From contig NC_011027.1 in the NCBI RefSeq assembly GCF_000020505.1, forward strand, positions 418,001-482,000: a stretch of 64,000 bases of DNA. Direction: 5' to 3'. Every line of letters starts with the position of its first letter. Within the stretch, counting starts at the first letter, position 1. The DNA is from Chlorobaculum parvum NCIB 8327. GTDB lineage: Bacteria; Bacteroidota; Chlorobiia; Chlorobiales; Chlorobiaceae. The position numbers were made by a program, and so were the translations under genes. Positions 10-3,802 of this stretch are shown here, one piece after another. The notes under the pieces are model-generated. The model ran no database searches and was not told where the DNA came from. It was given only the letters and a program-made list of their open reading frames with translations.

Positions 10-1248
10 ATGCAAATCATCGTCTTTGAAGATCAGGCCGTGTTGCGGTTTTCACCGCTTGTTGACCTGAAACCGGTTTATGATCTGGTCACCGGTTGCC
101 ATTCTCTCCGCCAGCGCTTTGTCGCGAACCTTTCCGCATCGCACAACCTGAGCTGGCATCTTCGCCGCCGTTGCGCTGCGTGGTTCAGCGAGGCCAATCC
201 CGGCGCGGTGGTCAATCGCGTGACTGAGGATGACGTGCTGCTTGTCAACGGGCGGCTCATCTGCGATGCGGCGGTGATGCAGTTCATCAACTCGGGTCGG
301 ATCGAGCCGGGCGAGGCCGTTATCCAGAACGGCAACCTCCTGTTCTGCCGCACCACGGCGGAGCCGCTTCCTTTTGCGGGAACGGTGTTTCCGGATACCA
401 TCAATGGCATGGTGCTGGCCGGTGCGTTCTCCTGCGTCGAAGTTTCCGGGTTCCGGTTGATCGAAAACCTCTGGGAGCCCGTGGCGATGCACCCGGAGAT
501 GATGCAGCTTGATGGCGAGTCGCTCGATCTCGGGCGCATCGAAGGCGAGGTGCACCCTTCGGCGATTCTGGTCAATCCGTCTGCGATCACTGTCGAAAAG
601 GGGGCGGAGGTCAAGGCTGGCGCGGTGCTCGACGCCAGCGACGGGTTCATTTACATCGGCGCGGGTGCGTTGGTGGAGCCGATGGCGCTCTTGATGCAGA
701 ACGTGTATATCGCGCCGGGCGCGCGGGTCAAGAGTGGCGCGCGGATTTACAGCAACGTCTGCATCGGCAGCGGGGCGAAGGCGGGCGGCGAGATCGAGGA
801 TTCGATCATGGAGCCCTTCTCCAACAAGCAGCACGACGGCTTCCTCGGCCACTCCTACATCTCAAGCTGGTGCAACCTCGGCGCGGGCACCGACACCTCC
901 GACCTCAAGAACAACTACAGCGCAGTCTCCATCGATACCGGACGCGGCCCGGTCAAAACTGGTCAGCAATTTCTCGGCCTGCTGATGGCCGAACATGCCA
1001 AATGCTCCATCGGCACCCGCTTCAACACCGGCACGGTCGTTGGCACCTCGTCGAACGTCTTCGGCGACGGAATGCCCGCCAAGCACATATCCTCATTCTG
1101 CTGGGGCGACGGCAAATCCGACTCCGAAGCCTATGAAATCGGCAAAGCCGTCGAGACTGCAAGAAAAGTCATGGCTCGCCGCAAGGTTGAGATGAGCGCC
1201 GCCTACGAGGCGATGTTTTGTACCGCAGCGCAGCAGAGTGGGCGGTAG
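10..1248 (+). CDS. GlmU-like sugar-phosphate nucleotidylyltransferase/acyltransferase
   Basis: The 412-residue protein has the arrangement of the Bacteroidetes/Chlorobi variant of GlmU. A divergent nucleotidyltransferase-like N-terminal half (about residues 1-185) is followed by a left-handed beta-helix of hexapeptide repeats (about 190-370), seen as recurring patterns such as IYIGAGALVEP and VYIAPGARVKSGARI. The family is expected to make UDP-N-acetylglucosamine, or a related sugar nucleotide, for the cell envelope in the cytoplasm. The start at the window edge fits the family, which opens with a short strand like IVFEDQ. The substrate cannot be settled from sequence alone. Confidence 0.75.
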   Translation: MQIIVFEDQAVLRFSPLVDLKPVYDLVTGCHSLRQRFVANLSASHNLSWHLRRRCAAWFSEANPGAVVNRVTEDDVLLVNGRLICDAAVMQFINSGRIEPGEAVIQNGNLLFCRTTAEPLPFAGTVFPDTINGMVLAGAFSCVEVSGFRLIENLWEPVAMHPEMMQLDGESLDLGRIEGEVHPSAILVNPSAITVEKGAEVKAGAVLDASDGFIYIGAGALVEPMALLMQNVYIAPGARVKSGARIYSNVCIGSGAKAGGEIEDSIMEPFSNKQHDGFLGHSYISSWCNLGAGTDTSDLKNNYSAVSIDTGRGPVKTGQQFLGLLMAEHAKCSIGTRFNTGTVVGTSSNVFGDGMPAKHISSFCWGDGKSDSEAYEIGKAVETARKVMARRKVEMSAAYEAMFCTAAQQSGR

Positions 1249-1292
1249 GTTTTCATGCTCGCAGGTGAGAGTTTAGAGGCCTGGATTTGTAA

Positions 1293-1311
1293 GGGCGCAC
1301 GCCATGCGCCC
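1293..1311. repeat. GGGCGCA palindrome, GTAGGGGC-type repeat
   Basis: The arms gggcgca (1293-1299) and tgcgccc (1305-1311) form a short hairpin after the GlmU-like gene. The flanks (tttgtaagggcgc and cgtgtgtg) resemble the palindromes at 4650, 29492, 53306 and 62525. No T-run follows, so it is described as a repeat rather than a terminator. Confidence 0.5.
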
Positions 1312-1439
1312 GTGTGTGCCGGAGCGCTTTGCAGCAAAAAGACAATTGACAGGGTAATAAAGCGAAGTTGGCTTGTTTGCTGTTCGTTTTACGAATATAT
1401 TTCGTTAGTCTTAAATATTTGTTAATAAAATTCAATACT

Positions 1440-2867
1440 ATGAAGCTAAGTCAAATATACAACTTAGGGAAATCGCAAGCAGAATTGGATTTTGTTGATA
1501 TAGATCCAAGCGAAGATTTGCCTCTGTTTCTTGACCCATTTTTTCTAAGTATAAAAAAAGATAATTGGTCTCACGAGGCGACCTTAACACTTAGAAGCTT
1601 CTTTCAACAAGTTATTGACTTAATTAGAGTCAATGATGAGGATGGCGCAAAAGCTTTATTCGACCATCTTCATGAGCCGAATGTTACATGTTTAGGTATG
1701 TCGGTTGGTGATCCAAGAGGTAGAGGTGTGGGGAATCAAGATACGGATAAGATTTATGAAAGCTTGCTTCGTAGCCGAGCAATTCAAACAGGGCTTATTA
1801 GAGATATTGAGGACAATATTTTGTTTGTTGATAATTTTGGAAAAGATAAGTTGTCAGATATGACAACAAATATAATAACTAAGCATCTTATTGAGTATAC
1901 CCAAAATCAATGTAGATTGAATAATATTCCTTTGTTGGATGGTATAAATTCTGGGTTTTACTGGGATAGATATGAGGGTGAATGGGTTTCAAGTCATTCG
2001 CAGATGTTAGTTTATGGCGATAAGAAGCTGTTGTTGGTTCCAAAAGGAATAGTCTCTTTTAGTAAAGATTATACTCCAGATAAATACTATAATCAGTTTG
2101 TTCTTAATTTTCTTCAAAATGAGAATTTACGGTTAAATTCGGTATTGGTTCAGCGAAGAAGTAATGGTGATAGGTATGTTACTAAGAAAAGTCTTAAAGA
2201 GACTAACCCTCAATCTAAAGATTTTTTGAGAAGATTTACTCAGGAGCATCCTGAGGTTTTAGAGCAGTTCAAAGAAGAGACCGATGTTGATTCTGTAAAA
2301 AATATCGAAATATCTGATATAAGTATTGGCGATGTAACAAGAGGCTTAATCGAAAGATTAAGACAAATGCCTGCTGGCTCTGAGACGGCAAGTGATTATC
2401 ATAACATTATTATTGGTATTTTAGAGATTATGTTTTATCCTCATTTGATTAATCCAATAAAAGAACGAGAAATTCATGAGGGGAGAAAAAGAATTGATAT
2501 TTCATTTGATAATTCTGCAAAGCAAGGTATTTTTAGGAGGTTGTCTGAGAATATGAGGATTCCTTGCCCTTATGTTTTTGTTGAATGTAAAAATTATAGC
2601 CGCGAGATAGCTAATCCAGAGTTAGATCAAATTGGTGGTAGGTTTTCAATTAATCGAGGACAAGTTGGGTTTATTGTTTGTCGACAAATTGATAATTTTC
2701 AATTGTTTATTGAACGTTGTCGCGATACTTATAGAGATGGAAGAGGATTGATAATTCCATTGGTAGATCAAGACTTTATAGATATACTCCAAAACTATAC
2801 TGATCTGAATTCGGAGTTTATAGAAACATTTTTATCAGACAGAGTTCGAGAGATCGCTATAAATTAA
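1440..2867 (+). CDS. orphan AT-rich gene with a PD-(D/E)XK nuclease signature
   Basis: This 475-residue protein belongs to no family I can name. Its C-terminal third has the layout of a restriction-endonuclease fold: E329 (LEIMF), D353 in RKRIDISFD, E382-x-K384 in FVECKNYS, and Q397 in LDQIGGRF, which is the expected E...D...ExK...Q order. The N-terminal 300 residues show no motif I recognise and could be a target-sensing domain. The gene is far more AT-rich than its neighbours and uses AT-ending codons heavily, which suggests recent transfer. I start at ATG 1440 (MKLSQIYN); the frame is open upstream from 1368, but that stretch looks non-coding. No methylase, helicase or integrase lies nearby, so a single-gene defence function or a relic of an element are both possible. 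Nuclease activity is inferred. Confidence 0.75.
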   Translation: MKLSQIYNLGKSQAELDFVDIDPSEDLPLFLDPFFLSIKKDNWSHEATLTLRSFFQQVIDLIRVNDEDGAKALFDHLHEPNVTCLGMSVGDPRGRGVGNQDTDKIYESLLRSRAIQTGLIRDIEDNILFVDNFGKDKLSDMTTNIITKHLIEYTQNQCRLNNIPLLDGINSGFYWDRYEGEWVSSHSQMLVYGDKKLLLVPKGIVSFSKDYTPDKYYNQFVLNFLQNENLRLNSVLVQRRSNGDRYVTKKSLKETNPQSKDFLRRFTQEHPEVLEQFKEETDVDSVKNIEISDISIGDVTRGLIERLRQMPAGSETASDYHNIIIGILEIMFYPHLINPIKEREIHEGRKRIDISFDNSAKQGIFRRLSENMRIPCPYVFVECKNYSREIANPELDQIGGRFSINRGQVGFIVCRQIDNFQLFIERCRDTYRDGRGLIIPLVDQDFIDILQNYTDLNSEFIETFLSDRVREIAIN

Positions 2868-3238
2868 CAACACATAATAGTATGTCATACTTGATGGACG
2901 GGATAGTCGTACCTTATATCAAAGTATACAGCTCGCATTAAAAATCGGCGACCTCACAGGTTACAGTTTATACTGGCTACGCTAATCCTTCGACATCAGT
3001 TAGTACAGTTCCATTCTAAAATTCATCCTTTTTCCGCAATTACTCCTTTTTTTCTAGCCAGCCTACTTACTCCTGCTTCATTTCCTGAGCCACAACCCAA
3101 ACAACACATTTGAGTTTCGAGCCCAAACGGAACTATATTGCGCCTTGAAGTCCGCCAGCGGCTCTCATGAGGCTCCGAGGCGGGCGTCATCCGTAAGAAT
3201 TTTTTAAGTCTTTATTCAATAGTGTTTTACGTGCTCTC
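2868..3238. other. gene-free stretch before trpG
   Basis: About 370 bases without a convincing gene. The first half is AT-rich like the gene before it and could be the tail of the transferred segment. The last 100 bases, with gcggctctcatgaggctccg and an AT-rich run at 3197-3230, probably hold the trpG promoter. I see no tRNA, no integrase site and no clear terminator. Confidence 0.4.
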
Positions 3239-3802
3239 ATGATTCTTGTTATAGATAATTACGACTCGTTTACGTACAACCTTGTTCAGTACATCGGCGA
3301 ACTTGGTGCTGAGGTGGTGGTGTACCGGAACGATGAACTCACCGTCGAACAGGCGCTGGCGCTCAAGCCGGAGAAGATTGTTATTTCGCCTGGTCCCGGC
3401 ACGCCTGCCGATGCGGGAATTTCCATTCCGCTCATCAACGCCGTGAAAGGCAAGATTCCGCTCTTCGGCGTCTGCCTCGGCCATCAGGCCATCGGCGAAG
3501 CGCTTGGCGGCAAGGTGGTTCGCGCTGGACAGATCATGCACGGCAAGACCTCGGAGGTCTATCACAACAACAAAGGCGTGTTCCGCGGCCTTCCCAATCC
3601 CTTTATCGCTACCCGCTACCACTCGCTCGTTGTGGAGCGCGAAAGCCTGCCTGCCGAGCTTGAAATCACCGCTTGGACCGAGGACGAGGTCATCATGGGC
3701 CTTCAGTCCAGCGAACTCGGGTTGCATGGCGTGCAGTTCCATCCCGAATCGATCATGACCTCTGTCGGCCACGATCTCATCAAAAATTTCTTGGACATCT
3801 GA
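3239..3802 (+). CDS. trpG: anthranilate/aminodeoxychorismate synthase glutamine amidotransferase
   Basis: A class I glutamine amidotransferase of 187 residues that supplies ammonia to anthranilate synthase (tryptophan) or aminodeoxychorismate synthase (folate). The start [18 protein letters not shown] is typical. The nucleophile is C79 in GVCLGHQ, and H168/E170 in QFHPES complete the triad. PGPGTP is the oxyanion region. No trpE or pabB is adjacent, so the partner is not shown by context. The next gene starts 6 bases downstream, so the two are probably co-transcribed. Confidence 0.9.

Follow-up and report, generated by a model that had tools for sequence, protein, structure and literature searches.

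Shedu (SduA, DUF4263) is a lone protein with a PD-(D/E)XK core and swappable N-terminal regulatory domains, that is, a nuclease core operating under diverse N-terminal regulators (PMC12137116). PDC-M36, in contrast, is a two-gene computational candidate already listed in PADLOC; a literature search by this PADLOC family name came back empty, and no experimental report on PDC-M36 was found. The gene described here lies in a 64,000-nucleotide stretch of the Chlorobaculum parvum NCIB 8327 chromosome (the window, meaning the whole stretch of DNA that was analysed). Its product, P0001, most probably serves as a one-gene nuclease defence against phages or plasmids, built on a plan like that of Shedu without belonging to it. 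The main features are as follows, in window positions:

10..1248, + strand: left flank, a sugar nucleotidyltransferase gene with NTP_transf_4 and hexapeptide repeats (Pfam; conserved in relatives)
1255..3087, no strand: AT-rich inserted segment of about 1.83 kb, 35% GC, with this as its only gene (G312 alignment, empty sites, ORF list)
1440..2867, + strand: gene for the 475-aa two-domain protein P0001 (open frame, PADLOC, PHROG, end-to-end relatives)
1440..2300, + strand: N-terminal domain, residues 1-~287 (conservation, model, stand-alone plasmid copies)
2322..2864, + strand: predicted C-terminal PD-(D/E)XK nuclease domain, residues 295-475 (invariant residues, Foldseek)
3239..3802, + strand: right flank, which from its translation we take to be a trpG/pabA-type glutamine amidotransferase gene (conserved in relatives)

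The frame at 1440-2867 translates as 475 codons with 0 stops, bearing out the 475-residue product of the first-pass annotation; an alternative upstream TTG start would give 499 aa, and the aligned relatives begin at the ATG at 1440. P0001 is present as a single copy in its 2.29-Mb genome. Pfam and NCBIfam searches with P0001 returned 0 matches. PHROG 27295 matches it over its full length (E 6.9e-98), and the PADLOC model PDC-M36A (PDLC04597) matches residues 2-455 (E 5.6e-34, 115.7 bits). As PDC-M36A is also matched by 30/30 aligned relatives, P0001 belongs to a broad PADLOC candidate family and is not the orphan that it had been called. The frame is unbroken in 23 further relatives of the window type, and dN/dS, taken where dS can be estimated but with dS near saturation, is 0.095 for the window gene compared with Flavobacterium L001 and 0.05 for the two Flavobacterium genes compared with each other. 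Intact frames together with dN/dS of 0.05-0.10 imply that the nuclease motif did not arise by chance.

The C-terminal third of P0001 is supported as a PD-(D/E)XK nuclease by invariant catalytic residues and a predicted structure. The codons concerned, all on the + strand, are:

2496-2498: D353
2583-2585: E382
2589-2591: K384
2628-2630: Q397

D353, E382 and K384 are invariant in 30/30 full-length relatives, in the ordered D...(D/E)xK arrangement of the PD-(D/E)XK superfamily, and G313, D353, E382, K384, N385, Q397 and G407 are invariant in 23/23 nuclease domains, including those joined to other partners. These four catalytic-type positions of the signature first proposed (D353, E382, K384, Q397) therefore stand, but its opening residue, E329, does not, being T or S in most relatives beyond the closest ones; because E329 is not conserved, the signature is D353-x28-E382-C-K384-N385-x11-Q397. 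The model of full-length P0001 has a mean pLDDT of 84.4 and a pTM of 0.85. The first-pass annotation had named a model lacking a nuclease fold as counter-evidence to its proposal; the best Foldseek matches of the model are mostly PD-(D/E)XK enzymes, every E-value being >1e-3. In the PDB they include VC1899, EcoT38I (prob 0.82) and FokI (0.80), at prob 0.80-0.85, and in BFVD the model reaches prob 1.00 with a phage protein labelled ‘restriction endonuclease’, in neither database with an E-value below 1e-3. PDB sequence searches with P0001, A1, A4 and A5 gave nothing credible.

One may argue that P0001 is a stand-alone restriction enzyme, whose N-terminal domain (N-domain) would read a DNA sequence or modification in type IV style and whose nuclease would cut there, with no infection sensing. 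Restriction enzymes are indeed among the best Foldseek matches to the PD-(D/E)XK fold, Mrr_cat (Pfam) gives weak matches in 12/30 relatives (best E 0.0011; none for P0001), and the insert has no methylase. However, P0001 matches no restriction family in Pfam or PADLOC and the N-domain resembles none of the known DNA-reading folds, and we consider this reading unlikely. A type II restriction-modification enzyme was also looked for: the cognate methyltransferase is absent, the insert being single-gene and no methyltransferase being found among the 35 other window proteins scanned (PADLOC, E <= 1e-10), just as the first-pass annotation had seen no modification enzyme nearby. At this threshold these ordinary proteins, which also serve as a comparison for the PADLOC-scored neighbours of relatives described below, gave few matches, including the SspH, mads and LeoA models. 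An enzyme that had lost its methylase was rejected, since the insert is one gene and relatives have no constant neighbour, and a homing endonuclease was rejected as well, there being no such Pfam match and the gene being intergenic, not within another gene.

The N-domain had been left unassigned at first reading, and it is now seen to be a separable domain with no match in Pfam, NCBIfam or the PDB. Modelled alone, it reaches a pLDDT of 84.6 and a pTM of 0.80, with less confidence in the loop at 89-100; Foldseek found no relative of this model in the PDB (best E 1.2, prob 0.04), and a PDB sequence-profile search with the N-domain was empty. Residues D26, E79, G86, S88, G94 and G98, as well as E124, D136, S139, D140, T154 and P201, are invariant in 29-30 relatives. 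Six of these residues are encoded on the + strand as follows:

1515-1517: D26
1674-1676: E79
1809-1811: E124
1845-1847: D136
1854-1856: S139
1857-1859: D140

The N-domain profile also finds stand-alone proteins of ~300 aa encoded on plasmids (E 8e-71 to 2e-19, shuffled controls E >100), with hosts in Bacillus, Staphylococcus, Rhodococcus, Prescottella, Corynebacterium, Pseudarthrobacter and Acinetobacter. The genes for the N-domain alone are:

L096:5001-5948
L097:2955-3866
L098:4887-5795
L099:4863-5777
L102:4926-5786
L103:5543-6487
L104:3813-4712
L106:4863-5774
L107:4881-5774

These plasmid genes, hypothetical and spread over several phyla, have rep, partition or toxin-antitoxin genes close by and carry no attached nuclease. 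Conversely, the nuclease domain is joined to a different N-terminus in Paenibacillus (E 5e-53), stands at the C terminus of a QueC-like (QatC-type) protein (G219, L071:46-2016; E 4e-21), a fusion of which no description was found, and exists by itself as a 184-aa protein, next to a gene that can be read as TIR with a nuclease-like region (E 1e-11). The order in the last case (G077, L077:710-2091), a TIR and nuclease-like protein followed by the 184-aa nuclease domain, possibly represents a two-gene TIR system. Since the N-domain occurs alone on plasmids and the nuclease occurs with other partners, P0001 consists of two exchangeable modules, a build that would correspond to the usual sensor-plus-effector plan. 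It is also conceivable, although we give it only a small chance, that the N-domain is a new fold with an acidic ligand-binding or catalytic site (D26, E79, D136, S139, D140) acting as an exchangeable infection sensor, and that its plasmid-borne copies are a decoy, immunity or anti-defence factor against full-length nucleases.

The composition of the gene sets it apart from its surroundings, as had been noted at the outset (33.8% GC vs 56.4% for the window), and comparison with sister genomes shows where it sits. Matches to G312 stop at 1254 and resume at 3088, and empty sites were also compared in drawing the insert borders. In insert-free relatives (e.g. G149, G063, G189, G273, G102) the NTP_transf_4 gene and trpG are ~55-155 bp apart, and the site is empty in most sister genomes. 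Where it is occupied, the cargo differs: G312, which has both borders in common with the window, carries a 555-aa OLD/GajA-like ATPase-TOPRIM protein; G036 and G289 carry DEAD helicases of ~1000 aa; G169 carries an Xre-like gene and two ORFs, one of them weakly HEPN-like; and G106 carries a homologue of PD-lambda-5 A (E 3e-163), then a Dam-like methylase of which the contig, ending there, holds only the beginning. PD-lambda-5 itself has been validated by experiment (PMC9519451). Several of the genomes are drafts whose flanks fall on different contigs, so the cargo is visible beside one flank only. Thus, an imported nuclease occupying the same spot as antiviral cargo in sister genomes is probably an undescribed one-gene immune system.

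Several further observations concern this site. It is variable in the genus (window 1255-3087; L045-L051, L082-L095), with toxin-antitoxin-type or IS3 cargo as well. In G052, a single contig (L094, L095), the flanks lie ~770 kb from each other and face opposite ways, and each has IS3-type genes, which suggests that the hotspot has been rearranged:

G052:C1:557699-558116 and 1329754-1330155: the hotspot flanks in G052

The insert borders were examined for direct or inverted repeats revealing an integration mechanism, and none was convincing. ARAGORN called a tRNA-Leu(cag) at 929-1015 on the - strand, within the left-flank ORF and opposite to it; the call is not made in three relatives and is probably spurious. 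A literature search found no paper linking Chlorobium, phage and defense islands.

PD-(D/E)XK folds serve in DNA repair too, and on this ground P0001 might be a housekeeping nuclease of DNA repair or recombination. However, any relative, single-domain matches included, is found in only 11/395 genomes of the phylum, and this patchy distribution together with the empty sites in most sister genomes contradicts such a role, to which the foreign composition of the gene is equally ill suited; we regard it as extremely improbable.

The genomic contexts of relatives point in the same direction as the hotspot. P4-like satellites and P2-like phages bear known antiviral hotspots (PMC9122126), and the P2 defence hotspot has been surveyed with the P2 portal as an anchor (PMC9519451). 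The relative in E. coli TK3887, the sole near match among 5,426 E. coli genomes, lies in a P4-like element integrated at tRNA-Thr, after a DUF927 primase and an Ogr/Delta-like gene, and in L062 and L066 the gene directly follows a P2-type portal gene (portal and terminase recognised from sequence). Other neighbours scored with PADLOC include the following: L003 has two cytosine methylases together with AbiLi/AbiLii-like genes, L063 has genes for type I restriction and for methylase specificity, L018 has a type III methylase, L015 an OLD-like ATPase, L044 an NsnA-like gene and a type III restriction enzyme, L066 a type IIG enzyme, and L043 a type I methylase with a dCTPase-type deaminase. The last locus belongs to G221, where a 575-aa dCTPase/AvcD-type deaminase gene (L043:4788-6515; PADLOC E 2.4e-126) lies 151 bp upstream of the relative. 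These defence neighbours were picked by eye and are therefore context, not an enrichment statistic; Streptomyces L005/L006 and Flavobacterium L008 have no evident defence neighbour, and window-type relatives have no constant neighbour gene. Nevertheless, the homologues are not confined to housekeeping contexts, the outcome that the first-pass annotation had held against its own proposal: relatives occur in defence hotspots and beside defence genes.

IMG/VR contigs contain relatives, and tblastn against INPHARED phage records gave 0 matches. The presence of relatives in satellites and prophages, and the recurrence of the N-domain on small plasmids, would suit an element-against-element weapon, with which mobile elements shut out rival plasmids or phages, any protection of the host from phages being a side effect. 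Yet the window copy sits on the chromosome, in a hotspot that has no phage genes, and the plasmid copies of the N-domain are nuclease-free, so that such a weapon appears distinctly improbable.

The relation to PDC-M36 raises another question, namely the missing partner. The next PADLOC model, PDLC04599, is PDC-M36B. In G117, from the window's own genus, canonical A (826.6 bits) is followed by two tandem paralogous B copies (L042:216-2354), and sequence comparison reveals the same A-B-B order on a Methylobacterium plasmid (L105:4737-6867). PDC-M36B was not found in the window genome (G000), in G221 or in 14 genomes and viral records with other window-type relatives, some of them fragments; among the genomes and records searched, PDLC04599 is present only in G117. 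Moreover, a B-like ORF is absent from the 4 kb around 20 window-type relatives, some of these records being viral fragments. As B was found in none of the searched genomes and records that hold a window-type relative, these relatives form a one-gene branch. One could take P0001 for a decayed PDC-M36 system, deprived of its former B genes and now inactive, given that canonical A precedes two B paralogues in both G117 and the plasmid and none is present in the window. However, the B-less state is common to the whole window-type lineage, whose genes are unbroken and constrained in several phyla and in prophages, and P0001 is far from the M36A model, its 115.7 bits against 826.6 for G117 indicating an old branch rather than a recent loss; degeneration is thus very unlikely.

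In the phylogenetic tree, P0001 groups with Flavobacterium and Pedobacter in a clade of four (support 100/99, inner fork 90/76), and G221, the nearest member from the window's taxonomic family, is placed away from it. The tree position and the GC contrast together indicate horizontal acquisition, and the sequence data indicate that the gene was probably transferred recently, its closest kin being Flavobacterium and Pedobacter genes.

Taken together, we favour, as reasonably probable, a horizontally acquired single-gene immune nuclease whose N-domain senses an invader and restrains the nuclease until then, DNA cutting following. The defence role is inferred from genomic context, and the N-domain would be the sensor and DNA the substrate. 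According to this model, the N-domain would recognise a feature of the invading phage or plasmid, or a disturbance caused by the invader; it would keep the C-terminal PD-(D/E)XK nuclease off until recognition; and the licensed nuclease would cleave DNA via D353, E382 and K384. Because a modification enzyme is absent, either the N-domain or the kind of target attacked would have to account for self-protection.

Since a PDC-M36 candidate is already in PADLOC, the existence of the family is not new. What appears to be new is the B-less one-gene branch, the two-way module exchange, the unmatched fold of the N-domain and the NTP_transf_4-trpG defence hotspot. If the favoured model is true, an unnamed one-gene immune nuclease is common to Bacteroidota, Pseudomonadota, Actinomycetota, prophages and P4-like satellites, and a sensor-type domain exists without a structural relative in the PDB. 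Furthermore, PDC-M36 would become open to testing by comparison of its B-containing and B-less forms, and the NTP_transf_4-trpG site would mark a chromosomal defence hotspot in green-sulfur-type bacteria.

Among known systems, Shedu is, by analogy of plan, the closest functional analogue of P0001. Unlike Shedu, P0001 has an N-domain resembling no solved structure, and neither DUF4263 (Pfam) nor SduA (PADLOC) matches it at E <= 10; hence, P0001 may work like Shedu without being a member. With Mrr and type IV enzymes it has in common the PD-(D/E)XK domain and, through its relatives, the weak Mrr_cat similarity, whereas P0001 itself lacks a significant match and its N-domain does not correspond to any domain known to read DNA. 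Group 2 relatives (~497 aa, e.g. L013, L014, L015, L016, L018) have the same N-domain and a terminal D...ExK motif, several of them lying beside defence genes, but a search with the profile of the window-type nuclease does not recover their C-terminal domain; one of them has a weak KwaB match (E 3.4e-4). Finally, P0001 matches the A model of PDC-M36 and has its N-domain and nuclease type in common, whereas canonical loci are A-B-B and P0001 is B-less, with 21% identity to the A protein of G117.
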